Part shown: piece after piece, positions 20,222-41,868 of the stretch
How the letters are laid out: each line of letters opens with the position of its first letter
Position numbering within the stretch: position 1 is the first letter of the stretch
DNA from: Fibrobacterota bacterium
Lineage (GTDB): Bacteria > Fibrobacterota > Chitinivibrionia > Chitinivibrionales > FEN-1185
Length of the DNA: 64,000 nucleotides
Assembly: GCA_003165595.1 (NCBI GenBank)
Contig: PLWQ01000013.1
Location: 124,001 to 188,000 of the forward strand
Direction of reading: 5' to 3'
Program-made: the position numbers and the translations under genes
The notes under the pieces: generated by a model
Database searches by the model: none
Told to the model about the DNA's origin: nothing
The model's input: the letters and a program-made list of their open reading frames with translations, nothing else

Positions 20222-23200
20222 CTAGTTGCCTATTGGAAGCGCATCAAGGTTGCCGTTGGCCGTGCCAAAGATAACTTTCCAAGTAAATATGTCGACCCAT
20301 GGTGTGCATGCGGTACTGGATCCGGAGGTATGAACAGGCCAATTGGCGCTGAAAATAGCTCCGGTCCCGTCGTTTACGGCATAATAGTCACCCGCATTTG
20401 TGCTGAAGTACACCGGCCCGCTTCCATTGTTCATAGCCACGGGGCCGCCTGTGATCTTGTTCGGCGCCACGAATTCCCATCCGGGGGACGTTATTGCTCC
20501 GTTAACCACCTTGTCCATATACTTGCCGTTGGCCACCCAAGCGCCTGCCGCACCGTGGGACGAAAACAACGGGGCCGCCGCCACCGCATTCATGCCCCAG
20601 GTCCACTTGGTGGAACTCAGATTCGTTATGTCAACGGCAAACAATTTTCCATTGGAGCCGCTGTAGCCGGTTATATAGGCAATGTTGTCGTTGATTTCGA
20701 AAGGATAGTCAACCATGGGCGCGGATGCGCCTCCGGACCACAATGCAATGACGTTGCCGGTGGCAAGATCCCGCTTTTCGAGTTTGCCGTCATTGGTGAC
20801 GTCATAAATATTTGCGGAGAATACCGACAGGTCGGCACCCGGGCTTATGTTGGCTTGATCGCTCGCATCCCATATCTGGTGGCCGTCGGTGAGACTGTAC
20901 TCGGTGACGTGTCCGTTTGACGTCACGCAAATGGCGCTCTGGTCCGGCGTCACCATCGGATCACCCGCATTGGAGCCATTGAGAGTAATGGGGCTAAATG
21001 ACAATTGAGAACATTGCATGCCGTTATCCTGAAGTATCACGAGCTGGTTTCCCGTCGTTCCCGTGGTAAATGCGACATCGTAGGTGGCGGTCGATGAACT
21101 GTAGTAATACTCGGGTTGGCTTATGGTGCCGCTGCCCAGCCCGGGAAATCCCCACAAAACGGAACCGTCGCTGGAACTTCTGCAATAGAGTGAGTCCGGC
21201 GTCCCGGTTATTGCCAGATAGATGGTTCCGCCTTCGGTGGAAATTCCCGAAGAGATACTGCCCAGGCCGCCCTGGTGCCAGATTCTTGCGAACTGGGAAA
21301 AATCCCAGTTCGAGTTTCCTCCGTCATCCACACACCCGTACAAGGCCTTTCCACGCATGGACGCGCCGGCGGTGGAATTCGCAATGTCCGCATAGGATGC
21401 GAAGAGCGAATCTGTGGTCGTTATGGTCCATGCAGCCGCGTTCAGGTTGATTAGTGCGCCAGGAGATCCGGAGAACGTTGCCCTGCCTGCCACGGAAATG
21501 GCTTTCCCGCCCAAATTGAGGAACGTTGAAGGTGTGCCGCTTGCCGAAAGTACGTCGCCGGTGATTGTGAGGGGCGAGAAAGTGGAAAAGTCAAATTGCG
21601 ACATGGTAATGCACAGGCCGGCGCAGGAAAGCACTCCGCCGAGTGTCAGTTTGCCGCCTCCGGTGACATAAATCTTAGGGAGCGTGGCGCTGCTGAGCGG
21701 CGTGAGTGTCTGGCCGCCGGTGCTCAGGAAAGAAAGGCTGCCTCCGCTGCTTGAAACGGAGGCGCACGAGCTGAGCGAAACGTTGCCGGTTGTCACGCGG
21801 ACATTGCTGGATCCAAAATTCATCGAACCGCCCGAAGTTGCAATGGAAGGGAGGGTGCTGGTGAGGCCGCTGCCCCAGTTCCATGTGCCGCCGGTGAGTG
21901 AAAAAGAGGAAGTCACCGTGATGGGGAAGTTCGTAACCGTGATTGCATCGGCGCCGGATTTTGTCAGCGAGGGAACCGACATGCCGGAGTCCGGTATAAA
22001 CAAATAGGAACCCGCGTCAATGCCGCTGAAGATAACGGAGGCGCCGGTAGTGAGCAGGGAACCGCCCGTGGTGAAGTCGGCCCCTTGAGTTATGGTGAGA
22101 CTCTGGCTGTTGAAATTTAGGGTGCCCGTGTAGAGATTGGTCATGGTAAGCGCCTTGACCGTTGTTGGAGCCGACAGCTGGCAATTTCCAAGGCCGTTAT
22201 TGTCGAATGTCGCATTAGTCAACAACGTCGGCACCTGCTGCGTGTTCCAGCTTGCCGCCGTGCCCCAGGTGGAGGCGCCGGAGGAGACCCAATTTGCAAT
22301 GAAAGTCCAGTTGGTGTTGGCGCCCGTGCTGATCAAGTCCTGGCTTAATGTGGCGGTTCCCGCGCTCGACGAGGCATCGCAATAGGCGATGTGCGCATAG
22401 CTTGCGTTGCAGGCGCCGGTTACCTTCAAATACCAGCCGGAGGATGCGGCATCCATATCAAGATAAGCAGCGAACGATGTACCGTTGAGCGACGCGTCGC
22501 CGCCCACGGTAATGGTGCGTCCGCTGAGCGCGCCGGAAGCAAACGACCCCGTATTTCCGTTTGTAATTGTAAAGTCGTCGGTGGTCGTGAGGTCTTTTCC
22601 CCCAAGGTCAAAGCTGCAGCTTGTCGAACCGTTTTGTGTAAAAGTGTTTGCCGTCCATGCCGCCGTGGGGGTGACCGCCAGCTTGGCATTACCATCATGC
22701 TTGATATTAGGGAAGGTTTGGCTTGCTGGCGAGAACGTCTGGGTCGAGCTTCCGTTGAAGTCGAGCGAGTCACTCACATCGGAAGTGAGTGCAATATTCG
22801 AAAAATCGACAGTCGATCCGTTCGCCTTGAGAATGGTGGCGCTTCCAAGGTTGAGAGTGCTTGCGCCCGTGCCGGTGATACTAACTACCCGGTTGGTTGT
22901 CGCCGGAGTGGAAAGAACGACACTGCTGGCGGTCAAGGTCAGGTCGCCGCAATTGAGGCCGTTGGTGGACACGGAAAGCGGGTTGGTTGCCCCGGATGTC
23001 ACGGAAATAGCGGGCAGGGTCTGAGATGCAAGCGGCGGCGGAATAAGCACCTGGGCTGCAGAGCCTGCAAAAGAAAGTGTGCCGGTGCCGAGGGTTGTGG
23101 TTGCTGCGGCGCCCATGCCGAAATTTGCGGTTGTTCCGCCAACGGTGAGTACATTGGCGGTGGTGCCGAAACTGAAATTCTGGGCAAAAGTTGACAGAAA

Positions 23201-25630
23201 TGTCAGGTTCTTGATCGTGGTAGTCATGTCGAGCACACAGCCCCGAATAGCCGTGTTGTCGAACTGCGCATCCTCCGTTGAAGCCGGACTATGGCTAAGA
23301 CTCCAGTTGGTTCCCAGGGTCCACGAAGTGCTGTTTGTGCCGTGCCAGACATTTATTGTAGAAAATATCCAATCTGGCGGAGTCGCACCGTTTGTTCCAA
23401 GGTTGGTGGAAAGCACCGCGGTCCCGCTGGCTTTCCCGGTGTGCATGAATGAATGTCCGATATCGCAATTCAACGCATAGAGCGTGTAAGTTGTGGGGAC
23501 ATCGATGTACCAGTTTGAGGTTCCGTCAACGACAAGATGATTCAAGGTGCTTGTGCCATAGAAATTGGCGTTTCCCGCTGTTACCAGAATCGTTGTGCCG
23601 CCAAGACCGGTGAGGGTCGTTGCGGTGCCGTTGCTGACTGCAAAATTGCCGGACGCCATGGTCAGGTTCTTGCCATTGAAATCCAGGACGCTGGTTCCGG
23701 GACCGTTGTCGCCGGATTGCGTGAGACCCTTGCACGTGATTGCATTTTGAAACTGCAGCGTTCCTGCGCCCGTATGCACAATGGCGGGGAGCGTCATCGC
23801 GATCGTTGGCTGGGTAAGTTGCTGGATGCCGCTTGCGCCATAAAAGACAAACTGCGACGATGCCGTTGAAGTGATGAGTTTTATGGCAGAGAGGTTTGCA
23901 TTGCCTGGAAAGGAAAGAGAAGCCGTGGCATTCAAGACAAGGGACCCGTTGGTTACAGTGAGCGTGCCAAGTGCCGTGTCACTCTGCCCGGTTCCAATCG
24001 TTAATTTCCCGTTTGTCGCCATTGAGAAATTGTTGAACTTTAATCCGCTGTTGACGGTGTAGGTTCCGGCGCCGGTGATTGCGATGTTGTAAAGATCGGT
24101 GGAGGTGTTGGTGGTGATGGTGTTGGTCGTTGCTGTTCCGGCCAGGGTAAGCGTTCCGTTGTTATGGGTAAATGTTCCGGCGGTCTTCGCAAAATTCGCG
24201 GTGAGGAAAAAAGTGTTGCCGCTTCCCGGGGCGCTGAAGGCCGTGCCCGAAAGTGTCACCGCACCGGTCACGGCCACATTGCCGGTACTGGCGTTGATGG
24301 TGCCGCCTGCGGCAGTAAGGCCGGCGTTGCAGGTAAGGCTGTTGGAGCCGACATTGAGGGTGCCGGCGGTCATGGTAAATAGAGCCCCCGTTGTGGTACT
24401 GCCCGAAAGATTCCATGTTCCGCTCGAATTATTGAACTGCAGTTTGTAAAAGGAATTTCCGTTGGGAGTGATGGTGTACGGTCCGGAGCTGCCGTTGAAA
24501 ACAACCGTTCCTGTCCCGCATGTGAACGTGCCTCCGGTGTTGGACCAGTTGCCTCCTGCGTTTATAGTGCCGGTCGAGCTTTCCTTGAATGTGCCGCCCG
24601 ACAGACTGATGTCGCCGCCGACAGTCACGGCACCGGTGGAACTCACCGTAAATGTCCCGCCGGACACGCTCAAACCATTCGTGGTGGTTACGGTCCCGGT
24701 GGTGACGCTGAATGTCCCGGCGGCCATGCTCCAGCTGCCGGCAGTAAGACTGCCCGTGGTCATGGTGGCTGTTGCGGTTGTGGGCATGCTCCAGGCACCC
24801 GTGATTTTTGCTGTGCCGTTTGTGGAGGTGTAGGTGCCTGCATTGACCGTGAGGTTACCCCCGACAACGAAAAATCCGGTCCCGAGCCCGGTTGGCAGGG
24901 TGAGAGTGCCGCCGCGTTGCGCGTTGGGGGAGAGAATCACGTTTCCCGTGATTGTATCATGGCCTGCTGCTCCGCCCCCGGTGAATGTGCCACTGTCAAC
25001 TGTCAATGCTCCAGCCTTAAATGCAAGCGCATTTGCGGAATAGATAGGCGTTCTGGTGCCGGTTGTCCCGCTGACGGTGAGGCTGTTGCAGACGAGCTCG
25101 TTTGTAGATTGGGTTAGCGTGCGGTTGGACCCGGTGCTTCCGTCCTGCAGGATGATGTCCGGAAGTGTCAAGGCTCGCGCCGGTGGAACAAAATTCCGGT
25201 TGTTCGAAATGCTAATACTGATTTCTGAGGGGGACGAAACATTCTGAAATACGCCGGGAGAACCCAGATCGAATGTAATGTTTCCTGTAGGTGTATTGAG
25301 CGTCAGCGTTTTGCCGTTAAAATCAAAGTTACCTGTGTAGGTGTTGGATATTTGAATATTGGCAAACAAATAGCTTGCGTCAAGCTGCACCGAGTTCGAC
25401 GTGGCATTAAAAACCGCGATATCCGCGGCGGCCTTGCCTGGATACCCGGTATTCGGATTCCAGTTAGCCAGTGTACTCCATTTCGTGTTTGCCCCTGCTC
25501 CTGTCCAGGTATAGGTCGTGCAAAAAACAGTTGCATAAAGGAGCAGGATCATGCTACAGAGGTACGGTGCCGAGTCCTTGGCGCGGAGGGATTTCCTGCA
25601 CGATGATGTTTGTGCGATCGTAGCCTTCAT
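20222..25630 (-). CDS. Giant Gly/Thr/Ser-rich repeat adhesin with C-terminal beta-propeller
   Basis: 1802 residues from ATG 25630 (alternatives 25660 and 25552). After a signal region, three related modules begin near residues 40, 759 and 1111 with a W-x(n)-W-N pattern ('TWTGAGANTKWSTLANW', 'NVWHGTNSTSWTLGTNW', 'NWVSSGASTWGTAASW'). Each leads into long Thr/Gly/Ser/Asn-rich repeats (TGNVT, TVTGG, LTLNT) typical of beta-solenoid surface proteins. From about residue 1445 the style changes to a PQQ-like propeller ('LYCRSSSDGSVLWGF', 'DGHQIWDASDQ', 'KLFAVDITNLSSTKW'). No separate C-terminal sorting domain is obvious; the chain ends 'LDALPIGN'. It probably acts at the surface in attachment or substrate contact. 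It lies between the PorV-like gene and the second propeller. Confidence 0.75.
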   Translation of the reverse strand: MKATIAQTSSCRKSLRAKDSAPYLCSMILLLYATVFCTTYTWTGAGANTKWSTLANWNPNTGYPGKAAADIAVFNATSNSVQLDASYLFANIQISNTYTGNFDFNGKTLTLNTPTGNITFDLGSPGVFQNVSSPSEISISISNNRNFVPPARALTLPDIILQDGSTGSNRTLTQSTNELVCNSLTVSGTTGTRTPIYSANALAFKAGALTVDSGTFTGGGAAGHDTITGNVILSPNAQRGGTLTLPTGLGTGFFVVGGNLTVNAGTYTSTNGTAKITGAWSMPTTATATMTTGSLTAGSWSMAAGTFSVTTGTVTTTNGLSVSGGTFTVSSTGAVTVGGDISLSGGTFKESSTGTINAGGNWSNTGGTFTCGTGTVVFNGSSGPYTITPNGNSFYKLQFNNSSGTWNLSGSTTTGALFTMTAGTLNVGSNSLTCNAGLTAAGGTINASTGNVAVTGAVTLSGTAFSAPGSGNTFFLTANFAKTAGTFTHNNGTLTLAGTATTNTITTNTSTDLYNIAITGAGTYTVNSGLKFNNFSMATNGKLTIGTGQSDTALGTLTVTNGSLVLNATASLSFPGNANLSAIKLITSTASSQFVFYGASGIQQLTQPTIAMTLPAIVHTGAGTLQFQNAITCKGLTQSGDNGPGTSVLDFNGKNLTMASGNFAVSNGTATTLTGLGGTTILVTAGNANFYGTSTLNHLVVDGTSNWYIDVPTTYTLYALNCDIGHSFMHTGKASGTAVLSTNLGTNGATPPDWIFSTINVWHGTNSTSWTLGTNWSLSHSPASTEDAQFDNTAIRGCVLDMTTTIKNLTFLSTFAQNFSFGTTANVLTVGGTTANFGMGAAATTTLGTGTLSFAGSAAQVLIPPPLASQTLPAISVTSGATNPLSVSTNGLNCGDLTLTASSVVLSTPATTNRVVSITGTGASTLNLGSATILKANGSTVDFSNIALTSDVSDSLDFNGSSTQTFSPASQTFPNIKHDGNAKLAVTPTAAWTANTFTQNGSTSCSFDLGGKDLTTTDDFTITNGNTGSFASGALSGRTITVGGDASLNGTSFAAYLDMDAASSGWYLKVTGACNASYAHIAYCDASSSAGTATLSQDLISTGANTNWTFIANWVSSGASTWGTAASWNTQQVPTLLTNATFDNNGLGNCQLSAPTTVKALTMTNLYTGTLNFNSQSLTITQGADFTTGGSLLTTGASVIFSGIDAGSYLFIPDSGMSVPSLTKSGADAITVTNFPITVTSSFSLTGGTWNWGSGLTSTLPSIATSGGSMNFGSSNVRVTTGNVSLSSCASVSSSGGSLSFLSTGGQTLTPLSSATLPKIYVTGGGKLTLGGVLSCAGLCITMSQFDFSTFSPLTITGDVLSASGTPSTFLNLGGKAISVAGRATFSGSPGALINLNAAAWTITTTDSLFASYADIANSTAGASMRGKALYGCVDDGGNSNWDFSQFARIWHQGGLGSISSGISTEGGTIYLAITGTPDSLYCRSSSDGSVLWGFPGLGSGTISQPEYYYSSSTATYDVAFTTGTTGNQLVILQDNGMQCSQLSFSPITLNGSNAGDPMVTPDQSAICVTSNGHVTEYSLTDGHQIWDASDQANISPGADLSVFSANIYDVTNDGKLEKRDLATGNVIALWSGGASAPMVDYPFEINDNIAYITGYSGSNGKLFAVDITNLSSTKWTWGMNAVAAAPLFSSHGAAGAWVANGKYMDKVVNGAITSPGWEFVAPNKITGGPVAMNNGSGPVYFSTNAGDYYAVNDGTGAIFSANWPVHTSGSSTACTPWVDIFTWKVIFGTANGNLDALPIGN

Positions 25631-25685
25631 AATGGTTTCACCGTGCGCAGTACCCGGCATGGATTGAACCGTTGTCTTGTCGAGG

Positions 25686-26633
25686 CTAATTAAAAGGATT
25701 TCCTAGAAGAAAACTGATGGTGAACTTATGCGTAAGCCCAAGATCGGAATCAGGAATCCAGAGTCCATAGTCGAATCCGAAGAAGGAGTAATGCACGCCG
25801 ACACCAACACCATAATCCGGGTAACTCGAATGCATTGAGGCTGCATCGATGTCCAAGGACATTCCCCCTCGGACCGAAACGATATTGAACAACGTGTATT
25901 GCAGGCCCAGGGCCGCTTCTTCAGGCTGTTGCAGGGGCTTAAGCATGTCAAGTTCTGCACGCAACGAGTTCTTGAGAAATGAAGCCTCAATGCCGGCACG
26001 AAAGGTTGTGAGAACCGGGTCGCTGTGCCCGGTATTCCACCACAACGTGCCGCCGATGTTCTGGACACTCACGCCCACACACAGGAAATCCACGGGCTGC
26101 CAGGTTGCTCCCACGTCCGCGCCAAGACCGTTGGCATTCCCGTTGAGCATGCCTTCATTCAGATACCGCAGTGTTGCTCCCAGCGAAATGTGCCACAGGA
26201 GTCTGCCGGCAACGGAAACCGCCACAGCATTTTCGTTGTAGTTGAAAGTGCCGAGAGAGTCCCCGACATCGTTGGTTTGCGGAATGGCATTGACGCCTGC
26301 ATTGATAAACGAAAGCCCGACCACCAGGTAGCTTCCAACCGAGGCTGCGGCGTCAACCCCGATGTGTCTCCTGTCAAGCGTCATCAACGAGTATGTGCCA
26401 CTGAGGAAGTAGGAGCCTTCGGTAAGACCATCGTAAATCGCCGGATTGTACTCTGTACCAACCAGATTATCGCGCCATGCTGTTGCCGCCCCGCAGAGGC
26501 TTGCCGCCTGGGCGGTTACCGGCAGTTGTAGGTATGCGGCGCCTCCGGCTGCGTAGCCGACAGAGGCAAAATTTGAGGATTGTGCTGCGGCCTCAAAGAC
26601 CGTGAGCGCGAGGAGCACGGCGATTTTGTCCAT
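25686..26633 (-). CDS. PorV/PorQ-family outer-membrane beta-barrel protein
   Basis: 315 residues from ATG 26633. The mature N-terminus 'GYAAGGAAYLQLPVTAQAAS' with 'EYNPAIYDGL' and the later amphipathic strands match the PorV/PorQ family: a small-residue start, an NPA motif after the first strand, and a long FadL-like barrel ending 'KFTISFLLGNPFN'. In type IX secretion PorV helps deliver sorted proteins to the surface. The next two genes encode a giant repeat protein and a propeller with a sorting-type domain, which fits an export or anchoring partner. Its promoter candidate is 295 bases upstream. Confidence 0.75.
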   Translation of the reverse strand: MDKIAVLLALTVFEAAAQSSNFASVGYAAGGAAYLQLPVTAQAASLCGAATAWRDNLVGTEYNPAIYDGLTEGSYFLSGTYSLMTLDRRHIGVDAAASVGSYLVVGLSFINAGVNAIPQTNDVGDSLGTFNYNENAVAVSVAGRLLWHISLGATLRYLNEGMLNGNANGLGADVGATWQPVDFLCVGVSVQNIGGTLWWNTGHSDPVLTTFRAGIEASFLKNSLRAELDMLKPLQQPEEAALGLQYTLFNIVSVRGGMSLDIDAASMHSSYPDYGVGVGVHYSFFGFDYGLWIPDSDLGLTHKFTISFLLGNPFN

Positions 26634-26704
26634 ACCGGTTCCGTTAGCTTTCCAAATGGTAATGGTCTGCGCCGTTTGCCACAATTACTGATAAGGCGGC
26701 AGCC

Positions 26705-26822
26705 TGAATCCCAAAGTTTGCGCATTCCCTGAAGCTATTGCTTCGGGGTTAGCAAACGACTATAAACTTCTTCTTCCTTAGGGATGGAAGATACCCCGCA
26801 GCTTGCTGCGGGCGTCTTCCAT
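26705..26822 (-). repeat. Dispersed nested-palindrome element, copy 2
   Basis: Read on the minus strand, a hairpin at 26784-26822 has outer arms ATGGAAGA/TCTTCCAT and inner arms CCCGCAGC/GCTGCGGGG around an AA loop. It is followed by a second hairpin at 26716-26757 (outer GTTTGC/GCAAAC, inner CCCCGAAGC/GCTTCAGGG). From 26790 down to 26705 the sequence matches 2131-2207 of copy 1 apart from short indels. Unlike copy 1 it has no insertion between the arms of the first stem. It would be transcribed in the leader of the PorV-like operon. Confidence 0.6.
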
Positions 26823-27020: not shown

Positions 27021-27179
27021 CTACGAAACCGACGGCAGTCTCATGCAAGCCTGCTGGCGGTTGGGACCGGACCTGCACTTGCCGCATCCAAGAGCACGGC
27101 GCTCGAAGATCGGTTCCGATTCCACTGTAGGAGGCGAGTATTTCGGTTTGGATTTTTGTTTGGGATCTTCTTGTTTCAC
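27021..27179 (-). CDS. Small 52-residue protein, possible RiPP precursor (GTG start)
   Basis: The GTG at 27179 is preceded by AAAGGAG with a 7-base spacer and by a near-consensus promoter (27222-27250). Residues 1-30 are hydrophilic (MKQEDPKQKSKPKYSPPTVE, then SEPIFERRAL). Residues 31-52 are GCGKCRSGPNRQQACMRLPS plus VS, with Cys32, Cys35 and Cys45. A leader-like front ending in an 'ExIFExxAL' helix and a short Cys-containing tail is the layout of many peptides matured by radical SAM enzymes. A PqqD gene and a SPASM enzyme lie 1.7-3.2 kb upstream on the same strand. The precursor role is inference; a small zinc-binding protein is the alternative. That the gene is real is better supported than its function. 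Confidence 0.6.
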   Translation of the reverse strand: MKQEDPKQKSKPKYSPPTVESEPIFERRALGCGKCRSGPNRQQACMRLPSVS

Positions 27180-27221
27180 GGAGATACTCCTTTAGACGTG
27201 ATGCTTGGAATATACACAAAG

Positions 27222-27250
27222 ATTGTATCCGCCATCCAGCAAAAAGTCAA
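27222..27250 (-). promoter_or_regulatory. Strong candidate sigma70 promoter for the 52-residue gene
   Basis: Minus strand TTGACT (27245-27250), a 17-base spacer and TACAAT (27222-27227), each one base from consensus. The start codon is about 40 bases downstream, giving a short leader that contains the AAAGGAG site. This suggests the small gene is expressed independently of the HD-GYP-like gene upstream. Confidence 0.6.
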
Positions 27251-27395
27251 TAGAATTGCCTCGGACGCAGTGTTGACACGCTCCCACAAAGGTGGTTCCA
27301 GCGGAGCCCGTCCTTGCGAAGGCGGGGAGGGAGCGGGCAATCGTCACGCAATGACCGTATCCACGGGCGTGTGCGGCCCTGTAAGTTGTGCCGCA

Positions 27396-28745
27396 CTAAA
27401 ATCCGTCCATGATGTCGACATCCTTCAGATAATCGGATGCAAGCGCCTTTGCAATTTGAACGCTTGTGTTCCTTGCAAGGTCCATCTGGCAGATGCTGTT
27501 CCTTACCAAAGGCTTTTCCATTGTGTCGGTAAGCACGCTCACCAGAGGCTTCCCGAGCGAATTCTTGTTTGCGTGCACGACCTTGGCAATGCTGTGATCA
27601 CTCAATTGCACCAGGCTGCCGACCGGATACAGCGAAGCATACTCCAGAAAAGCCTTGACAAATTCACCGGGAATCATGCCGGTTTTTGACATCTTTATCA
27701 ACCGGATCACGCCTTCGTGAGGAATGTATGCCTGGCGATAGCTGCGTGGTGACGTAAGCGCTTCGTAAATGTCGGCGATCTGGACCATTTTTGCAAACCT
27801 GTGAATGAGAAGGCTGTTTCTTCTCTTCGGATATCCGGTGCTGTTTTCGCGCTCGTGAACCTGATAGGCGACGTAGGGGATGGTTTCCGGCAGACGTGAG
27901 ACTTTTTCGAGCAGATGCAGTCCGAGGATCGGGTGCTTCTGGACCTCGAACCATTCCTCGGTAGTCAACCGGCCCTGCTTGGTCCGGATCTGGGCCGGAA
28001 CAAGGAGCATGCCGATGTCGTGAAGCAGTGCGCCGATTCCAATTTCTGCTACCTGGTTCTCGTTGTAGCCCGACGACGCCGAAATGTTTATCGCAAGCAG
28101 GCAAACGTTGAACGAATGATGGTAGATATAGTCTTCGTTTGCGTGCTTAATGCCCGAAATATTAAGCAGAATATTCTTGTCGGTAATGAATATCTTTACG
28201 AAATTGTCGACGATCCTGCGGATCTCCTTCCCATCGGCACTGCCGCCAGTCGCAAGCATGTCGAGCGTATATTTTACCTCCTTGAGCGCTCCGCGATAGG
28301 CCTCTGCGATCCCCGTTTTGTACCTGTCGGTACGATCGGTCACCGACAGCTGCGTGGCCTTGTTCCGCAGGGCCGGGCCAACGGGCCTGTCGGCGGATGA
28401 GCCAAGTTGTTTGTCGAGCAGGTAGGCCTTTTCGCTCCGGTTGAGCTGTGCAAGCCCCTCCTTGCCCGGCTTTACCGCTCGCACGTCCTGTATTTTCTGG
28501 ACAACCTGATCGTCAATATCGACGTCGCCAAGCGCCTTGAACTCCCTGTTGAGAATGCTGTGAAGCTCCTCTTCTTCGGTGACAGGCTTGACAAAAAGTT
28601 CGAAAATGTTCCGTCGCCTGAACGTTTCGAGAAACGGGTCGGTTATGGCGACGCCCTTGGAAACGAGCAGTTCGCCCTTTTCCGAATAGTAGTCAGATTT
28701 CGCAACGGCCCCGGAACATAGTGAAGAAACCTGAATCGACTTCAT
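27396..28745 (-). CDS. HD-GYP-like domain protein with altered metal-site motif
   Basis: 449 residues from ATG 28745 (GGAGG ten bases upstream; a GTG at 28751 is possible). The N-terminal 170 residues are unassigned. The C-terminal half carries LLHDIGM (about residue 242), 'TTEEWFEVQKHPILGLHLLE' and 'RENSTGYP', then 'VQIADIYEALTSPRSYRQA', clearly the HD-GYP fold that hydrolyses cyclic di-GMP. However, HDxGK reads HDIGM and the usual HHE before GYP reads VHE, losing one conserved His. It may be a weak enzyme or a binding protein. It lies at the downstream end of the capsule run; a second such protein is at 41869-42897. Confidence 0.82.
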   Translation of the reverse strand: MKSIQVSSLCSGAVAKSDYYSEKGELLVSKGVAITDPFLETFRRRNIFELFVKPVTEEEELHSILNREFKALGDVDIDDQVVQKIQDVRAVKPGKEGLAQLNRSEKAYLLDKQLGSSADRPVGPALRNKATQLSVTDRTDRYKTGIAEAYRGALKEVKYTLDMLATGGSADGKEIRRIVDNFVKIFITDKNILLNISGIKHANEDYIYHHSFNVCLLAINISASSGYNENQVAEIGIGALLHDIGMLLVPAQIRTKQGRLTTEEWFEVQKHPILGLHLLEKVSRLPETIPYVAYQVHERENSTGYPKRRNSLLIHRFAKMVQIADIYEALTSPRSYRQAYIPHEGVIRLIKMSKTGMIPGEFVKAFLEYASLYPVGSLVQLSDHSIAKVVHANKNSLGKPLVSVLTDTMEKPLVRNSICQMDLARNTSVQIAKALASDYLKDVDIMDGF

Positions 28746-28822
28746 GCGCACGAAACCTCCAGGATTGAGCGCTTAATGGTTACGATGCAGCCTATAACCC
28801 CGCCGCAGAAAAGCACTCGGGA

Positions 28823-28927
28823 CTAGAAGGTAATAAAATTGTAATATTTTGGGAAGGCTAATTCAAGTCCTTCGAGATTCGGGAGCGAAATCCCCTTGCG
28901 CTCCTTTTTGACCCACTCGAGTCTCAT
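28823..28927 (-). CDS. Possible 34-residue peptide overlapping the SPASM gene stop
   Basis: An ATG at 28925-28927 overlaps the TGA of the radical SAM gene (ATGA, 4-base overlap) and opens 34 codons (MRLEWVKKERKGISLPNLEG, then an aromatic tail FPKYYNFITF) to a TAG at 28823. The overlap arrangement is typical of translationally coupled genes and the short charged front with hydrophobic tail is peptide-like. There is no independent ribosome binding site, no cysteine and no recognisable family, so chance is a real possibility. Confidence 0.3.
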   Translation of the reverse strand: MRLEWVKKERKGISLPNLEGLELAFPKYYNFITF

Positions 28928-29946
28928 GCAGGGGCGAACTCATCCGTGACCGCCGCGTGCAGGCAAAGACTGGGCGATTTTCCTCTCCATTTTCCGGACT
29001 CAAGCAAGGCGATCCCGTGGCATCTCGAACACGACCGACGAAATGAACAAACCCGGCATTCGTGAGAAAGCGATGTCTCCTGACGCCTGAATTTCTGTGC
29101 CGCCGGCGAATTCCAGACATCCTTGAATGAAGACGACGCGCAGTTGCCAAAGGGAATACGAAGCTGGGCGCAAGGGAAGACGGCCCCGTCCGGCGCAATT
29201 CCGGCGAGGCTTCTGCCAGCGTCACAATGAAGACGGGCGGTGGTGTCCCGTTCCGAGGAGCAGGAAAACGGCCTTGCTCTCATCTTTCGCAGGAACTCGC
29301 GGATTTTCCGTTGCGAGAGCGCGTAGGAGGAGACGCTGTCTGCCTGCGCGGGTACAACAAAGCTGTCGCATTCGAAAAGGGCTCCGGTGGATCGGGACAG
29401 TTTGTCAAGCAACGCAAATTCTCCAAAGTTTAGCGAAGAAACGGTGTGCTTGATTGCTGTCTTGACGCCGAGCGCCAGGCAGAAGTCCAGCGCCCTGCGC
29501 GCCTTTGCAAAGCTGCCCGGAACTCCGCTGAGAAGGTCATGAAGCGGGGCGGACGCGGCATGAAAACTGATCCCGATATCCATGATCCCGAGCGCCAGGA
29601 GACGTCTGGCGGCTCTCGCGTCAAGCAAACTGCCGTTGGTAATGACGCTCACGCCGAATTTCAGGCCGCGCGCATGTTCCACTATGCCGAAGAAATCCTT
29701 CTTGAGCAGCGGCTCACCGCCGGAAATGGTGAGATAGAGCGTTCCGGACTGCGCAAGTTGGGCAAGGATGCGCGACCACTGCCTCTGTGACAAGTCGTGC
29801 GAACGGGTAAATGATTTCTGGTAGCAATAGTAGCACCGGTGGTTGCAGCGATAGGTGAGTTCGATGAGTACGCCAAGCGGAATATTCTTCTGCGACGCCG
29901 TGCTGTTGATCCGCTGCGCAAGGGTGGCGGATGGCCGGGATTTCAT
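28924..29946 (-). CDS. Radical SAM/SPASM peptide-maturase-like protein
   Basis: 340 residues. The radical SAM motif is C34-NHR-C38-YY-C41, followed by the 'ISGGEPLL' loop. The C-terminal SPASM region has 'HCDAG', 'DGAVFPC', 'FGNC' and 'ECRVC...RSCSRC', enough cysteines for auxiliary iron-sulfur clusters. SPASM enzymes of this size modify ribosomal peptides or act as anaerobic sulfatase-type maturases. The upstream neighbour is a PqqD-like gene, the usual peptide-binding partner, in the same reading frame and separated by one stop codon and 40 open codons. The ATG at 29946 has AGAGG about 10 bases upstream. The substrate is unknown; candidates are the small genes at 27021 and 28823. Confidence 0.85.
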   Translation of the reverse strand: MKSRPSATLAQRINSTASQKNIPLGVLIELTYRCNHRCYYCYQKSFTRSHDLSQRQWSRILAQLAQSGTLYLTISGGEPLLKKDFFGIVEHARGLKFGVSVITNGSLLDARAARRLLALGIMDIGISFHAASAPLHDLLSGVPGSFAKARRALDFCLALGVKTAIKHTVSSLNFGEFALLDKLSRSTGALFECDSFVVPAQADSVSSYALSQRKIREFLRKMRARPFSCSSERDTTARLHCDAGRSLAGIAPDGAVFPCAQLRIPFGNCASSSFKDVWNSPAAQKFRRQETSLSHECRVCSFRRSCSRCHGIALLESGKWRGKSPSLCLHAAVTDEFAPA

Positions 29947-30066
29947 CTGACGGCCTGCCTCTTCAAGAAAAGTCGGTTGAGCGCACGGTTCTAATTTATC
30001 CGGTGCAATGAGGGCAAAGTAATTTTCATCAAAGACGTCCGGCCGAATTGCAAATGACGGAACGTG

Positions 30067-30357
30067 CTATGAGCAATGCCGCACGACGACGAGTTTTTTC
30101 TTCTCAAGCGTTTCGACGAAGTCGCAGACATCTGAGAGGTCCTTTCGCGAATCAAAACCCTCGAATGATTCTTGAAGTAACTCGCATATTTCTTTGATGG
30201 ACGGGCTCTTTTCAATGGTGCTCCAAATAAAAGTTCCCACGTCGTCGAGCTTGTGCAGCATGCTGTCTTTTGCCGTGATCACAAGCATCTGATCGTCAAA
30301 CATGCGTTGGGCAATGTGCTCGTTCTTGCTTACGCGATCATGAACGGACAATTCCAT
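30067..30357 (-). CDS. PqqD-family peptide-binding protein
   Basis: 96 residues, typical for stand-alone PqqD. The pattern 'RMFDDQMLVITAKDSMLHKL', 'DDVGTFIWSTIEKSPSIKEI' and 'DVCDFVETLEKKKLVVV' follows the PqqD fold: a hairpin, then the ln-x-x-g-x-x-iW helix, then a winged end. Such domains (RiPP recognition elements) hold the leader of a precursor peptide for a radical SAM enzyme. It lies 41 bases after the DegT gene and 120 bases before the SPASM gene, all on one strand, so a partnership with the latter is likely. Confidence 0.82.
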   Translation of the reverse strand: MELSVHDRVSKNEHIAQRMFDDQMLVITAKDSMLHKLDDVGTFIWSTIEKSPSIKEICELLQESFEGFDSRKDLSDVCDFVETLEKKKLVVVRHCS

Positions 30358-30397: not shown

Positions 30398-31462
30398 TCA
30401 GCGAGCGCCGATTGCCCGCAAGAATACCTGTTTCACCTGCGAGATCTCGTTTTGGGTAAGGTCAGGATATATTGGAAGAGAAATCGCTCGCTTGTAAATT
30501 TCGTCGGTGCCTGGGAACCCTGTCTTCTTGAGATAGTGATGCAATGGCCCGTAAATCGGCCTCCGGCATGACACGCCTGATTTTTCCGACTTTCGAAGGA
30601 TGCCGGAAATCGGTTGGTCAACAAGTGCCACGAACCGGTAGAACACGGATGAGGCGTGCGCTGTTGAATCCGGAAGCCGCACGCGTGGGGAAACGGGTTT
30701 CAATCCGTTAAGATATTCGCGGGCTACGGCCTTCCGGCGCCGGATGGCAGCGGGCAGTTTCTTGAGTTGCACGAGTGCAATGGCGGCGTGGACATCCGAA
30801 AGCTTGAAATTGAACGACGGAACATAGCGATCGCGGTTGTCGTATTCCCTCATGTCAGCTAGTTTTGCGGCGAGACGCGCGTCGGACGTTGCAGCCATGC
30901 CACCTTCGCCTGCGCATAGCAGCTTGGTTGCGTAGAACGAGAAAACCGAGATCGTAGTGAGACTGCCGATTTTTTCGCCGCCATTGGTCGTCCCAACGCA
31001 TTGAGCACAGTCTTCGATAACGGGGATGCCGGTCTCACGTTCGATTTCTTGCGCGGCCGCGGGCACCCCGAACAGGTGCGGCACGATGATTGCCTTCGTT
31101 GCACGACGCACGGCTTTTCGCGCACTGTGCGGATCCATGTTCCCTGTAGCCGGGTCTACGTCGGAAAGCACCGGATCGGCGCCTGCCAGTATCACTGCGT
31201 TGAGAAGCGCCGTACAAACGTACGAAGGAATCACCACGGAATTGCCCGGGCTCACTCCGAGCGCTTTGAGAGCGCAATAGAGCGCTGCTGTTCCCGACGA
31301 AACGCAAATCCCGAATTTGTGCCCGGCAACCGACGAAAGCTCGTGTTCAAGCATTTCGACGCACGGGCCTTGAGAAAGCTGCCGCGAGAGAATGACTTTT
31401 CCGCAAGCCGCTTTTTCTGCATTGCCTACAAACGGCCTGGAATGGGGGATGGACGTAATCAT
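30398..31462 (-). CDS. DegT/DnrJ/EryC1-family sugar aminotransferase
   Basis: 354 residues from ATG 31462, which overlaps the WbqC stop by 4 bases. It carries 'CVSSGTAALYCALKALGV', 'VIEDCAQCVGT' and the PLP-lysine segment 'SFYATKLLCAGEGGM', all hallmarks of the DegT family. These enzymes usually transaminate nucleotide-linked keto-sugars in glycan synthesis. The partner in this operon, WbqC-like, is often found with such enzymes in polysaccharide loci. Some DegT members act in antibiotic synthesis, so a role in the adjacent PqqD/radical SAM set is possible but less likely. Confidence 0.9.
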   Translation of the reverse strand: MITSIPHSRPFVGNAEKAACGKVILSRQLSQGPCVEMLEHELSSVAGHKFGICVSSGTAALYCALKALGVSPGNSVVIPSYVCTALLNAVILAGADPVLSDVDPATGNMDPHSARKAVRRATKAIIVPHLFGVPAAAQEIERETGIPVIEDCAQCVGTTNGGEKIGSLTTISVFSFYATKLLCAGEGGMAATSDARLAAKLADMREYDNRDRYVPSFNFKLSDVHAAIALVQLKKLPAAIRRRKAVAREYLNGLKPVSPRVRLPDSTAHASSVFYRFVALVDQPISGILRKSEKSGVSCRRPIYGPLHHYLKKTGFPGTDEIYKRAISLPIYPDLTQNEISQVKQVFLRAIGAR

Positions 31463-32154
31463 CGCCCCGTTCCCATCAGGATTGCCAGACTCTTGGGACC
31501 GCAGTTGAAAATCAAATCGATTGCCGACAGGTTGGGCACGAAATGTTCCGGGCCAAACGACCAATGCTGGGGATACACGGGACAGGTAAATTCCTGAAAT
31601 TCCACCGCAATGCCCGCCTTTTCAAAAAGAGAAATCTCCATGTAGTCTCGCCCGCCAGCGCCTGCAAGATAGGTGTCTGCCTTGAAGTGCCGGCAGATGT
31701 TGACCAGTCTCTCCGTTGATTCGCCCTTGAACCGGTAATCGGAAGAAATGAACGTTTCGGTTTGAATTCCCATTGCGCCGGCAAGGAGCCTTACCGAATC
31801 TATGTTTATCCTGTCTATTTTGCTTGCCGGCGCGCAGAAAAATTCTGCGAACAGGGGTATGTAGTCGTTGTAGAACGGAGTCTTTCCGTAGCTTGCGTCA
31901 AGAGAATGCAGGTGTTTCTTCTGCCAGTTCTGGGTAAAGTCAACCTGGACTTCATTGATCTTCTGGGGAAATTGGTAGGTTGTCGGCACGGTGAGCCATT
32001 GCCATGAGGTGGCGTTTCTGATCCGGTTGCGGTTCTGCCATTCATTCTTCTTGAATTGCACGTTGTTGAGAAGAACAAAGATGTCCGCGCTTGCCATCTT
32101 GTGAAAATATCCCAGCCATGGCATGTACTGCGGCTGGTGGATAGCGAGTCTCAT
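31459..32154 (-). CDS. WbqC-family protein
   Basis: 231 residues. The N-terminus 'MRLAIHQPQYMPWLGYFHKM' is the signature of WbqC-like proteins (HQP-x-Y-x-P-W-x-G), followed by 'NNVQFKKNEWQNRNRI' and 'YLAGAGGRDYM'. The biochemical role is not settled; family members lie in O-antigen and capsule loci next to DegT aminotransferases and are thought to modify amino-sugars. Start and stop overlap both neighbours by four bases (GT4 upstream, DegT downstream), indicating a tightly coupled operon. Confidence 0.9.
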   Translation of the reverse strand: MRLAIHQPQYMPWLGYFHKMASADIFVLLNNVQFKKNEWQNRNRIRNATSWQWLTVPTTYQFPQKINEVQVDFTQNWQKKHLHSLDASYGKTPFYNDYIPLFAEFFCAPASKIDRINIDSVRLLAGAMGIQTETFISSDYRFKGESTERLVNICRHFKADTYLAGAGGRDYMEISLFEKAGIAVEFQEFTCPVYPQHWSFGPEHFVPNLSAIDLIFNCGPKSLAILMGTGR

Positions 32155-33326
32155 GGCTGTTTTTCCTCCAGAACCCTGCGATAAACCTTGTCTATTTCGT
32201 CAACCATTACAGCGGCGCTGAACTTGGGGTTTACCCATGCTTTGCATGCTTCGGAAAGCGCCTTGCGATGGTCCCTTCGGCTGTACAGAAGTTCGATTTT
32301 TTCCGCGAGGCCGTCCGCATCGTCGGGGTCCACCAGATAACCGGTTCTTCCTTCGTCAATCACTTCCTCGACGCCGCCCACTCGGGTGCCTATCACGGGA
32401 ACGCCGGCTGCCTGCGCTTCCACAAAGGCTCTTCCCATGCCTTCATTCTTGGAGCACATGATAAATATATCAAATGCTCCGAGAAGGTCAGGTATATCGC
32501 TGCGCCATCCGGCAAAAACAAACCTGTCTCTCACGCCGGCCTCAGACGCGCGTGCAATGAGCGAGTCGCGGAGTTCTCCGTCGCCGACAAATACGTACCG
32601 GATGTTGCTGCAGGTGTTTTTGAGCCTGGCCGCAGCCGCTACAATGAGGGCATGATTCTTTACCGATACGAGTCTGGCAACGGTTCCAGCCACGAAGCAG
32701 GTTTTGCTCAGACCCAGACTTGCGCGCATTTCGAGCGGCGAGCGAGCCGGGTGCAAAAACGGGGCGAGTTCGATGCCGCTGTAAACGGGATAGAGTTTGC
32801 CTGGCGTGCCGATGTTCCTGAAAATGTAATCCTGTTTTTCGCGTTTTGTGAGTGTAATCTGCGCATCCGTGAACCTGCTCGCGAATCTTTCCAGATACAC
32901 AAAGAATCGAGTGAGCAAGCGGGAATAGTACCCGTAAAATATGTGCCCGTGAGGAGTATGGACGATGCAAGGAACCCGCGCCAGCCGCGCCGCTATCCTG
33001 CCCAGAATGCCGGCCTTTGAGGTGTGCGTGTGAACCAGGTTGTACTTTCCCTTCCTGATCCGACGGTAAATGAGCGCAAGCGCAACGCCGTCATTTATCA
33101 GGGACGGGCTGCGCACCAGTTGACGTATGCGGAAAATGGTCACGCCGGCCTCAATGGCCTTGGTTTCGTTTGCGCTGGGAGGATTATCGCTGTTGCCGCA
33201 GATGATATCGGTCTTGCAGCCTCTGGCCGCCATGCCGATTGCGGTAAGGAGCGTGTTTTCCGCTGATCCTCCGAGATCAAGGCGGGTGATAACATGAATG
33301 ATATGCAGGGAGCGAGGACTATGCAC
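32151..33326 (-). CDS. GT4-family glycosyltransferase, GTG start
   Basis: 391 residues from GTG 33326. This start lies within the last codons of the upstream GT9 gene and has AAGGA 8 bases before it; the protein then begins 'HSPRSLHIIHVITRLDLGGS', the usual GT4 N-terminus. The C-terminal donor site includes 'CSKNEGMGRAFVEAQAAGVP' and 'GGVEEVIDEGRTGYLV'. It probably elongates the lipid-linked repeat unit. It overlaps the GT9 gene by 8 bases and WbqC by 4. Confidence 0.88.
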   Translation of the reverse strand: MHSPRSLHIIHVITRLDLGGSAENTLLTAIGMAARGCKTDIICGNSDNPPSANETKAIEAGVTIFRIRQLVRSPSLINDGVALALIYRRIRKGKYNLVHTHTSKAGILGRIAARLARVPCIVHTPHGHIFYGYYSRLLTRFFVYLERFASRFTDAQITLTKREKQDYIFRNIGTPGKLYPVYSGIELAPFLHPARSPLEMRASLGLSKTCFVAGTVARLVSVKNHALIVAAAARLKNTCSNIRYVFVGDGELRDSLIARASEAGVRDRFVFAGWRSDIPDLLGAFDIFIMCSKNEGMGRAFVEAQAAGVPVIGTRVGGVEEVIDEGRTGYLVDPDDADGLAEKIELLYSRRDHRKALSEACKAWVNPKFSAAVMVDEIDKVYRRVLEEKQP

Positions 33327-34404
33327 GTCCGGTTTCCTTGAGAAGGCTGTCGATTTGCTCCAGAACGGATTCAACGGTAATATGTGTGAGACAGGCGAAC
33401 CGATCTCTGTTGTGACAGTTGAAAAAGCCGGACCGTTGCCGCGTCGCCGGGTAGCACGGACGACAAGGCACCGGATGAATGACGGAACGGCAGTGCATGC
33501 CGCTTGGGCCCGTTCGAATGTCGGACGTGGGGCCGAAAATCGCAACTGCCGGTATTCCGGCGGCCGCAGCCATGTGCAGAGGGCTTGAGTCGTTGGAAAG
33601 AAAGAGAATGCAGTGCTTCATGAGTTCGAAACTTTGCAGGATGGTGGTTGCGCCCATGCACGGGACCGCATCATTGCCGAGCGCGTCGCAGAACGCGGCT
33701 CCCAGTGCGCTTTCATCTTTTCCTCCAAAAACCAGGATTTTGACATCGTACAGCCGAACGATTCTTTTAGATACTTCAATAAATCGGTCGATGTTCCAGC
33801 GCTTGAACTGCATGTTCCCACCGGAGCCCGGGTGGATTCCGATGAATCGCTGTTCGGCGCGGCCATGCACGCCCGACAAAAACTTCAGTGCGAAATCCGC
33901 GTCCGTTTGCGTTGACCAAATAGTGCACGATGGGGCAACCATGGAGTTGCAACCCATGGCTTTGGCTATTTGAACGTTGCTTACAATCTCGTGTTGATGA
34001 AACCGGTACGGAATGCCGACATTGTACAGGACTCGTCCTGCTCCGAATTGTTCGCCGATCCTGCAACGGGCGCCGGCAAGCAGGGAAAAAAGCCCGGACT
34101 TGAGCGGATTCGTCCCGGTCGCAACGAATGCTATCTCCGGTTTTATGCGCCTCACCGTTTTGATAAATTTCAAGAGCGTCCGATCCGGCCGTTTCATTTC
34201 GTAAAGCAAGTTCAGCCGAGGATGATGTTTCACAATGTCGCCGGCTCCGCTCGCGGTGAGGAAGAACGACACCCGGGCATTTGGAAACGTCTCACAGAGC
34301 ATGGCGATTGCCGGAGTAAGAAAAATGAGATTTCCGATTCCGCCGAGAGAAATGAAAAGGATGTTCTTTACGGAGAGCGGTTCCATCGAAAAATCGGTTT
34401 TCAT
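33319..34404 (-). CDS. GT9 heptosyltransferase-family protein
   Basis: 361 residues from ATG 34404. 'ILFISLGGIGNLIFLTPAI' at the N-terminus and 'GIHPGSGG' plus 'SNDSSPLHMAAAAGIPAVAI' in the C-terminal half are the ADP-heptose:LPS heptosyltransferase (family 9) signatures. A Cys-containing tail (CRPCYPATRQRSGFFNC) resembles that of other GT9 proteins in glycan loci. It may add heptose or a related sugar. The downstream GT4 gene overlaps its stop. A second GT9 is at 47727-48842. Confidence 0.88.
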   Translation of the reverse strand: MKTDFSMEPLSVKNILFISLGGIGNLIFLTPAIAMLCETFPNARVSFFLTASGAGDIVKHHPRLNLLYEMKRPDRTLLKFIKTVRRIKPEIAFVATGTNPLKSGLFSLLAGARCRIGEQFGAGRVLYNVGIPYRFHQHEIVSNVQIAKAMGCNSMVAPSCTIWSTQTDADFALKFLSGVHGRAEQRFIGIHPGSGGNMQFKRWNIDRFIEVSKRIVRLYDVKILVFGGKDESALGAAFCDALGNDAVPCMGATTILQSFELMKHCILFLSNDSSPLHMAAAAGIPAVAIFGPTSDIRTGPSGMHCRSVIHPVPCRPCYPATRQRSGFFNCHNRDRFACLTHITVESVLEQIDSLLKETGRA

Positions 34405-34501
34405 TGAAATGCCTGCTGTATGAGCGCGCGCAGCATTACTATTTTGAAAGCTGTGATGGCACGGGCAAGGTGACAAAAGATTGCCGCAAAACAGAAGTCC
34501 C

Positions 34502-34816
34502 TTACATAAACTTGATGAATCTGTCTATATGCGCAAGCCGGAAAAGATCCCTCATGTCGGCCGTCGCATTGCTGATGTAGAGAAGGCCATTTGCCGACTG
34601 TATCTTTTTCAGAACCTTTACTATGCAGGCGATGCCCGGAGACGTCACGTAGGTCACCTTTGAGAAATCGAATGCAAGGCTGTTTTTGCCTTCCTCGATG
34701 ATCTGGGTCGCTATTAAATCGATTTGCGGATCGTTGAAGTCGAATGGCCCCGAAATTTCAATGGAGTCCAGATTCCCGACCATTCCTCTTGCTACCCGCT
34801 GCGAATTTATGAGCAT
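34502..34816 (-). CDS. STAS-domain anti-anti-sigma-like protein
   Basis: 104 residues, a single STAS domain: 'LDSIEISGPFDFNDPQIDLI', 'LAFDFSKVTYVTSPGIACIV', 'LKKIQSANGLLYISNATADM'. The phosphosite loop reads VTSPG where SpoIIAA-type proteins have D-S-S-G, leaving one serine available. Such proteins respond to serine kinases/phosphatases and regulate sigma factors or EPS enzymes. It sits inside the capsule operon between the polymerase/ligase and GT9 genes, so it may control polymer output. No cognate kinase is adjacent. Confidence 0.85.
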   Translation of the reverse strand: MLINSQRVARGMVGNLDSIEISGPFDFNDPQIDLIATQIIEEGKNSLAFDFSKVTYVTSPGIACIVKVLKKIQSANGLLYISNATADMRDLFRLAHIDRFIKFM

Positions 34817-34842
34817 ACCAAGGCTCCTTTTCTACGAGATTA

Positions 34843-36213: not shown

Positions 36214-36237
36214 GTCAAACGTCCCTGTTATGGAATG

Positions 36238-38496: not shown

Positions 38497-38508
38497 GAAC
38501 CGGCTCCG

Positions 38509-39285
38509 CTACGGGGTGAAAATCTTGACATAATAATACCATGGCAGCAATTGGGCTATCACGGTCATGACCTCGTTGAAGGTCGTGTAGATCCGTCTGG
38601 GCACAAAGATGATATCGTCATCCTGCAGGGCAATGTTCTTGTCGATACGTCCGCCGTCCAGAATCGCATACAAGTCGATGGAAATCATCGAAACGTTCTG
38701 TTCGTTGGCCCTGATAAGCTTGATGGATCGGCGGTATGCGCTAGACGCGCATCCGCCTGCGGCAGAAATTCCGTCGAGCAACCTGTCGCCATCCTTAATC
38801 AATACGCTTCCTGATTTGCCGACTTCTCCGAAAACATAGACTTTCGGCTCGAATGCTCTCTTTACAATAGTGACCTCACAGAATGGCGACACGACGTATT
38901 GGGACAGCTTGCTTTCAATCGTCTTTTCCGTCTGGGATACGGTGAGGCCGCCAACGAAGATTTCTTTGGCCGGGAGGATAAAGATGGAGCCGTCGTCGCC
39001 GATCCGCTTCATCTCGATGTGTTTTTCCTGGCTCACAGGGAGTTTGTCGTAGATTCCTATGGAGATCTCGTCGCCCGGATACAATATAGGGGCGCGCGCG
39101 CTGGCGCGCTTTGCGACTGCCTGAGCTTCCTGCGGGACGTACAACTTTACAAAATCACCCTTGGCAACGACTGTTTCCTTGTCGGTAGTCGCGGGATCGG
39201 GAACACGCTTTGCACAGGATGCGAGAGCAACACATAGAACGGCGCACGCAAGGGGCTTGCAAATCTTCCAGGGAAATCGATTCAT
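38509..39285 (-). CDS. Wza-like polysaccharide export lipoprotein
   Basis: 258 residues from ATG 39285, with a lipoprotein signal peptide (NRFPWKICKPLACAVLCVAL, then ASCAK). 'YPGDEISIGIYDKLPVSQE' opens the poly-export domain and 'KVYVFGEVGKSGSVLIKDGD' is the SLBB-type repeat. The C-terminus 'VIAQLLPWYYYVKIFTP' could be the amphipathic helix that forms the outer-membrane channel. It forms the export channel for the capsule with Wzc. It is the first gene after a consensus promoter at 39377-39405. Confidence 0.9.
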   Translation of the reverse strand: MNRFPWKICKPLACAVLCVALASCAKRVPDPATTDKETVVAKGDFVKLYVPQEAQAVAKRASARAPILYPGDEISIGIYDKLPVSQEKHIEMKRIGDDGSIFILPAKEIFVGGLTVSQTEKTIESKLSQYVVSPFCEVTIVKRAFEPKVYVFGEVGKSGSVLIKDGDRLLDGISAAGGCASSAYRRSIKLIRANEQNVSMISIDLYAILDGGRIDKNIALQDDDIIFVPRRIYTTFNEVMTVIAQLLPWYYYVKIFTP

Positions 39286-39376
39286 AGGCGTGCCCCGTTC
39301 ACATAGCTTTAGAGTACCCAAGTCTGCGGGATGGTATCCCGGTTCCCCGCGATTGGAGGCCGCAAAGTTCATACCA

Positions 39377-41785: not shown

Positions 41786-41868
41786 AAAGGGTGTACGCCA
41801 GCGCGCGGTGAAGCGGAGAGAATCCCCGGAGTCACGGACGTCGGCAGTGCGCGACTCCCCGGCGCACA

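Follow-up and report, generated by a model that had tools for sequence, protein, structure and literature searches.

A 52-Codon Gene Is Located Close to PqqD-Like and Radical SAM/SPASM Genes

The window considered here is a stretch of 64,000 nucleotides (contig C6:124001-188000) from the 5.39-Mb genome of a Fibrobacterota bacterium, which is 98% complete. Its minus strand carries, among other genes, a PqqD-like gene (30067-30357), a radical SAM/SPASM gene (28924-29946), an HD-domain gene (27396-28751), and a 52-codon gene (27021-27179) in this order. Sequence comparison with relatives from two phyla suggests, with a probability of about 85% for the explanation as a whole, that the 52-codon gene encodes the precursor of a radical-SAM-modified ribosomally synthesized and post-translationally modified peptide (RiPP). 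An initial annotation of the window had described the PqqD, SPASM, and 52-codon genes as lying on one strand, which was borne out, and Pfam recognized the PqqD, radical SAM, and SPASM domains above cut-off. The central features of the locus are the following:

27021-27179, minus strand: precursor peptide gene, 52 aa, GTG start, recognized by homologues and conserved columns; predicted leader at approximately residues 1-27 (YSPP at 14-17, IFER at 24-27) and predicted core at approximately R28-S52 (ALGCGKC...C-x6-S)
27187-27193, minus strand: ribosome binding site AAAGGAG, 7 nt 5' of the GTG start, read from the sequence
27222-27250, minus strand: promoter-like TTGACT-17-TACAAT of the peptide gene, with similar sites 5' of homologues
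27396-28751, minus strand: HD-domain (HD-GYP-like) gene between the SPASM and peptide genes, HD_5 76.9 bits
28924-29946, minus strand: radical SAM/SPASM enzyme, 340 aa, Pfam 79.6 and 53.0 bits, both above cut-off
30067-30357, minus strand: PqqD-like stand-alone RiPP recognition element (RRE), 96 aa, PF05402 39.7 bits (cut-off 23.4)

The near-consensus promoter and the strong ribosome binding site, which had been assigned to the 52-codon gene beforehand, were both found. Promoter-like sites of this type occur 7 times in the region versus 2.1 +/- 1.4 times in shuffles, and the upstream regions of two homologues contain pairs with the same 17-nt spacer (TTGACA/TATAAT in G002, TTGACT/TACAAT in G007). 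The gene in between, annotated as HD-GYP-like, indeed encodes an HD-domain protein, and a 69%-identical stretch is present elsewhere in the same genome (G000:C23). None of the relatives has an HD gene between the SPASM and peptide genes. In G041 and G003, the two genes follow each other immediately or with a gap of 184 bp, so the interposed HD gene is a local oddity of the source genome. A role of the HD gene in the pathway is unsupported, and it is probably not a pathway member.

The Peptide Is Conserved in Fibrobacterota and Acidobacteriota

Homologues of the 52-aa peptide were identified in five other Fibrobacterota genomes with E-values of 1e-19 to 1e-21 and 63-82% identity (63-86% in a local blast of the same five genomes), as well as in a sixth one (G165) with 58% identity, which rules out a chance open reading frame (ORF). 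By name, the peptide-bearing relatives are Chitinivibrionales bacteria, one Fibrobacterota bacterium, and one Candidatus Raymondbacteria bacterium, which points most likely to a host from the Chitinivibrionales within the Fibrobacterota. The peptide itself matched no Pfam or NCBIfam family at E < 1. A DNA-pattern scan of 84,980 species extended the family to soil Acidobacteria, with more distant homologues in Terriglobales, among them Acidobacteriaceae. In an alignment of 18 peptides from both phyla, the residues Y14, P17, E22, F25, E26, A29, L30, C32, G33, K34, C45, and S52 (window numbering) are invariant, whereby S52 is the last residue of the peptide. A C-terminal Ser is present in 51 of 53 distinct peptides, and in 49 of these 51 the last Cys precedes it by exactly 7 residues; the two exceptions run on into long frames and look frameshifted.

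The border between leader and core was placed provisionally by comparison with linear polyphosphorylated peptides (LPP; PMC13381572), a RiPP system from Bacillota. Phe-Glu is kept at the presumed cleavage place, followed by Thr in the Acidobacterial peptides and by Arg in most of those from Fibrobacterota. With its conserved small gene, YxxP leader, and C-terminal core, the 52-aa peptide has the features of a RiPP precursor. Compared with the window, the peptide core is 76-90% identical in the five relatives and 57% in G165, whereas the SPASM and PqqD proteins of the same relatives are only 41-51% and 34-44% identical, respectively. Because the core is more conserved than the enzymes within Fibrobacterota, the sequences suggest a specific conserved role rather than a weapon. 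Among the Acidobacterial peptides the middle of the core varies.

Some genomes contain more than one precursor. Terriglobales genomes often harbor two or three copies with differing core middles and a single enzyme set (L084-L089, L116-L135). In the Raymondbacteria genome G041, a divergent second peptide copy (YLKPAVESDLIYETQALGCAQC..., L038, contig C55) comes with a separate set of peptidase, SPASM, PqqD, and kinase genes, and this gene set directly precedes a gene for a secreted protein that exceeds 3300 aa.

Peptide and SPASM Genes Co-occur

The distribution of both genes was determined in 298 Terriglobales (Acidobacteriota) and 168 Fibrobacterota genomes. In the former, the peptide profile was found in 53 genomes and the orthologous SPASM profile in 57, with both present in 52. 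Thus, 52 of 53 peptide-bearing genomes contain the SPASM gene (Fisher p 4e-51, kinship ignored). The two genes are also close to each other: 50 of 61 Terriglobales SPASM genes or gene pieces have a peptide gene within 2 kb, which lies upstream on the same strand in 48 cases. The Acidobacterial cassette has the order peptide, S24/S26-like peptidase, HprK/ScmC-like kinase, PqqD, SPASM. Of 27 loci read, all contain kinase, peptidase, and PqqD genes and 26 the SPASM gene, whereby the exception is situated at a contig end. Many cassette-bearing Terriglobales genomes have further peptide copies that are not accompanied by enzyme genes. In Fibrobacterota, seven genomes have the peptide and five the window-type SPASM gene, and all five are among the seven. 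These genomic data support the earlier proposal that the small gene encodes the substrate of the PqqD/SPASM pair. The stronger expectation that peptide homologues are always found together with the SPASM gene holds for 52 of the 53 Terriglobales and five of the seven Fibrobacterota genomes with the peptide; in the other two, G007 and G165, no orthologue was detected.

The SPASM Enzyme and the PqqD-Like Protein Have the Expected Key Residues

The SPASM enzyme contains the CX3CX2C motif at C34/C38/C41 and SPASM cysteines at C241, C259, C297, C300, C306, C309, and C328. Motif and SPASM cysteines are invariant in relatives, and together with the Pfam scores they identify the protein as a SPASM radical SAM enzyme. 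Its nearest solved relatives by sequence in the PDB are SkfB and PqqE, of which SkfB is the closest. Because all expected SPASM cysteines are present and SkfB and PqqE are the nearest solved relatives, it is plausible that the enzyme forms a cross-link at an invariant Cys of the peptide.

The predicted structure of the PqqD-like protein has a pLDDT of 93, and the top Foldseek matches are lasso B1 proteins that were solved with their leader, the best one being the TbiB1-leader complex (5v1v). In LPP, residues D70 and N33 of the RRE hold the Tyr and Pro of the YxxP motif (PMC13381572). From the residue spacing in the alignment we infer that chain 9x8z is LppB; if so, the D70 and N33 positions correspond to D76 and D38 in the window PqqD. 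Among 21 PqqD family members, 17 have Asp at the D70 site and 18 have Asn at the N33 site, which fits the invariant YxxP of the peptide. Judged by the modeled PqqD fold and the leader-binding residues, the protein is likely to be a RiPP leader-binding element.

Kinase, Peptidase, and Nucleotidyltransferase Genes Are Part of the Same Polysaccharide Operon

The initial annotation had described a system of three genes. All three are real, but the set is larger, since genes for a kinase, a peptidase, and a nucleotidyltransferase are located at 39.5-41.9 kb of the window:

30398-39372, minus strand: polysaccharide genes linking both halves of the gene set (DegT, WbqC, GT4, GT9, STAS, Wzy_C, Wzc-like kinase, Poly_export)
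39518-39952, minus strand: S24/S26 archaeal-type signal-peptidase-like protease, 144 aa, SMSPFI and LHRVV motifs, blast 9e-15 to the G165 cassette peptidase
39921-40766, minus strand: HprK-like kinase, 281 aa, GPSGAGKTT P-loop, Acidobacterial cassette kinase profile E 1.1e-48
40763-41869, minus strand: NTP_transf_5 nucleotidyltransferase, 368 aa, PF14907 76.9 bits (cut-off 31.2)

These three genes lie 9-11 kb away on the same strand, in a polysaccharide operon. The assumption that kinase and peptidase are absent from the source genome was dropped, as the profile search found both in the window. The kinase profile was built from Acidobacterial and G165 kinases; in blast, the window kinase matched the G165 cassette kinase at 1e-50, and its match to NCBIfam HprK_rel_A (3.8e-5) is below cut-off. 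Similarly, the protease matched TIGR02228 at 7.1e-5, below cut-off, and Pfam S24 with 20.8 bits (cut-off 23.3); it is a candidate leader peptidase. The kinase-peptidase pair is also located within polysaccharide loci of G003, G009, and G007, and the order GT4-WbqC-DegT-PqqD-SPASM is repeated in G002. Kinase and protease are probably both involved in maturing the peptide.

Two HD-domain (HD-GYP-like) genes (27396-28751 and 41869-42897) lie in or beside the polysaccharide operon, which suggests control by cyclic di-GMP. Furthermore, a second cassette with HprK-like, PqqD, SPASM, and mostly S24-like genes was found at G000:C23 (L065 7350-12307) and at L067, L069, and L140. In G000, G003, and G007, it comes directly after a flagellin gene. 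A small ORF with an MKKPYxKPxI leader and a Cys-rich tail accompanies it in G003 and G002 (L069 8299-8472, L140 137-439), so that cassette and ORF may be another, flagellin-linked RiPP system.

Genes for Secreted Beta-Propellers Are Found Near the Peptide Gene in Both Phyla

On the other side of the peptide gene, three conserved neighbours are present:

25686-26684, minus strand: PorV/PorQ-family outer membrane protein, NF033709 90.9 bits (cut-off 90)
20222-25660, minus strand: 1812-aa repetitive secreted protein, with blast matches to giant proteins that are encoded next to the peptide gene in G003, G041, and G009
18496-20211, minus strand: 571-aa PQQ-like (BamB-like) beta-propeller with a C-terminal sorting domain of the type IX secretion system (T9SS), PF13360 124 bits

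A long hairpin (26784-26822, ATGGAAGATACCCCGCAGCTTGCTGCGGGCGTCTTCCAT) lies in the gap that separates the PorV-family gene from the peptide gene; it occurs once in the window and may be a terminator-like or repetitive element. The 1812-aa protein gave no Pfam match. The sorting domain of the propeller scored 26.5 bits for TIGR04183 (cut-off 23), and 106 T9SS-type sorting domains matched in the source genome. At E < 1e-100, the genomes with this propeller are exactly the seven Fibrobacterota genomes that have the peptide, whereby this threshold favours the loci that were used for the profile. The source genome has three propeller paralogues that lack a peptide beside them; at G000:C16:84494-93514 and G000:C10:41858-43531 (L063, L064), we observed three peptide-less pairs of a PQQ-like propeller with sorting domain and a giant repetitive protein.

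In Acidobacteria, the gene next to the peptide gene codes for a member of one secreted protein family at 17 of 25 loci without enzyme genes and at 9 of 27 loci with the cassette. A model of this protein (pLDDT 66, moderate) matches BamB and other beta-propellers. In a profile comparison with the Fibrobacterota propeller, the Acidobacterial proteins gave only a short match with a probability of 38%; the two propeller families are without clear sequence homology, and one giant-protein family common to both phyla is likewise unsupported by sequence. The neighbouring secreted beta-propellers in both phyla are a hint to the function. It might be, although we consider this tentative, that a phosphorylated, cross-linked C-x6-Ser peptide is a ligand, cofactor, or surface tag that partners the propellers, which would make it a structural or cofactor RiPP of the cell surface and not a weapon.

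Proposed Maturation Pathway and Alternative Explanations

We propose that the PqqD protein, a discrete RRE, would bind the YxxP leader via D76 and offer the core to the SPASM enzyme, which would install a radical modification, most likely a cross-link with one of the invariant cysteines (C32, C45). LPP maturation involves YxxP binding, HprK phosphorylation of core Ser3, and leader cleavage after Phe-Glu-Thr through a signal-peptidase-like protease (PMC13381572), and in paeninodin a C-terminal Ser is phosphorylated (PMC8498205). Since the Ser3 position is Leu here, the invariant C-terminal Ser is the better target, as in paeninodin, and would most likely be the hydroxyl that is phosphorylated next by the HprK-like kinase. 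The NTP_transf_5 protein may then decorate the phosphate. The signal-peptidase-like protease would cut after FE[T/R] and free a core of ~25 aa. The product would probably act at the cell surface, because the genes are part of a polysaccharide operon and lie beside a secreted beta-propeller and type IX secretion proteins.

Several points weigh against this explanation. The substrate-enzyme relation is deduced from genomics, the genome counts ignore kinship, and the profiles were built partly from the counted genomes. Two draft genomes, G007 (93% complete) and G165 (79%), have the peptide and no detected orthologue of the window SPASM. The kinase and peptidase genes of the window are 9-10 kb away from PqqD, the pathway role of their products is derived from relatives, and they match named family models only below curated cut-offs. 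Finally, the residue before the presumed cut is Arg in the window peptide, not Thr.

The proximity of the small gene could be due to operon structure only, with its product being a conserved small protein unrelated to PqqD and SPASM. The HD gene and a separate promoter intervene in the window, and the contig that carries the peptide gene has no SPASM gene in G002, G007, and G165, which would fit; but both genes co-occur in two phyla despite differing gene orders and YxxP is present in every copy, which makes this very improbable. The system could also be an LPP member in which the peptide is the target of kinase, peptidase, and RRE, while the SPASM enzyme has a different task, e.g., sugar chemistry of the polysaccharide operon. 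The YxxP...FET leader, the RRE, and the HprK-like, signal-peptidase-like, and NTP_transf_5 proteins all have counterparts in LPP, whose clusters are likewise found in polysaccharide loci. However, the SPASM enzyme is the partner most tightly tied to the peptide (adjacent in G041 and G003), Ser3 is replaced by Leu in all aligned peptides, and invariant cysteines have no role in LPP, so that we regard this possibility as quite unlikely.

A bacteriocin-like weapon of the sactipeptide or ranthipeptide kind would agree with SkfB as best solved SPASM relative and with the Cys core. It is an unlikely explanation given that the core is nearly constant across Fibrobacterota families, unlike in most weapons, and that neither an immunity gene nor a dedicated ABC exporter was recognized in the window. 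The peptide could instead be the precursor of a redox cofactor, comparable to PqqA for pyrroloquinoline quinone (PQQ), with the neighbouring PQQ-like propellers as its enzymes. PqqD plus SPASM is the toolkit of PQQ and mycofactocin, the core is highly conserved, and propellers accompany the peptide in exactly the seven Fibrobacterota genomes and, from a sequence-unrelated family, in Acidobacteria. Yet the conserved core is long and lacks a conserved Tyr or Glu, its middle is variable in Acidobacteria, and the three propeller paralogues of the source genome have no adjacent peptide. Moreover, BamB-like propellers usually bind no cofactor. A redox cofactor is therefore unlikely as well.

If the precursor assignment is right, a SPASM/PqqD pair that had been an orphan now has a named substrate, in two phyla with few described RiPPs. 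The invariant cysteines, the C-terminal Ser, and the YxxP motif lead to direct testable predictions. The function of polysaccharide-linked RiPPs was stated as unknown by the LPP authors (PMC13381572), and the link to secreted propellers in two phyla offers a route to it.

Comparison With Known Systems

In the open-licence literature we found no paper describing this peptide family, the LPP paper being the only related match, although one might exist elsewhere. Membership in the SynChlorMet, GeoRSP, PQQ, and lasso families was rejected on model cut-offs. SynChlorMet (TIGR04248-TIGR04250) likewise combines PqqD-like, SPASM, and HprK-like (ScmC) proteins, but the scores are far under the cut-offs (PqqD 19.2 of 100, SPASM 91.8 of 400, kinase 16.1 of 125), and no window or Acidobacterial protein reaches those of the ScmC, ScmD, and ScmE models. 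The PQQ and mycofactocin pathways share a precursor peptide, a PqqD-like protein, and a SPASM enzyme, whereas the peptide here is unrelated, kinase and peptidase are present, and the enzyme scores 107 of 381 for PqqE and 113 of 265 for MftC. Sactipeptides and ranthipeptides are defined by a Cys thioether to a backbone or side-chain carbon. With sactipeptides such as the sporulation killing factor (SkfB), the system has a SPASM enzyme and a Cys-containing peptide in common, but its RRE is a separate protein and its core is conserved between families. Phosphorylated lasso peptides of the paeninodin type have a stand-alone PqqD-like B1 protein, an HprK-like kinase, an NTP transferase, and a C-terminal Ser as well. 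In contrast, the window system has a SPASM enzyme and YxxP instead of WxxP, and the genes identified in window 18-44 kb and in L045 7.7-16 kb include neither a macrolactam cyclase (Asn-synthetase-like) nor a B2 leader peptidase. The lasso B1 model NF033536 is the best-matching one for the PqqD-like protein, yet with 33.1 bits of 80.

The closest match is LPP, reported from Bacillota in 2026. In both systems, the RRE is a discrete protein whose Tyr-binding site has an Asp, and it is accompanied by an HprK-like kinase, an archaeal-type signal-peptidase-like protease, and an NTP_transf_5-type protein. Both precursors have a leader with YxxP and, towards its end, FE(T), and both systems are located in polysaccharide loci (PMC13381572). 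The LPP combination of RRE, HprK-like kinase, protease, and NTP transferase is present here in one locus, with kinase and peptidase below the cut-offs of named models. Of the LPP leader motif YxxPxVLxHQxIxFETxxS, YxxP and FE are kept and VL, HQ, and the final xxS are not, and core Ser3 is Leu in 18 of 18 aligned peptides. No MsbA-like exporter was recognized when the examined window genes were compared with LPP; in Acidobacteria, 14 of 27 cassettes have an ABC protein nearby. The window system differs by its radical SAM/SPASM enzyme, its invariant cysteines and C-terminal Ser, and its Fibrobacterota and Acidobacteriota hosts. Because of the added SPASM enzyme, the cysteines, the C-terminal Ser, and the missing Ser3, it is outside LPP membership, but its gene set closely matches that of LPP, to which a radical SAM enzyme and a Cys core are added. 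It would thus work in the manner of an LPP or phosphorylated lasso pathway that includes radical SAM chemistry, and it represents a radical SAM version of the LPP gene set, which was itself discovered only recently.

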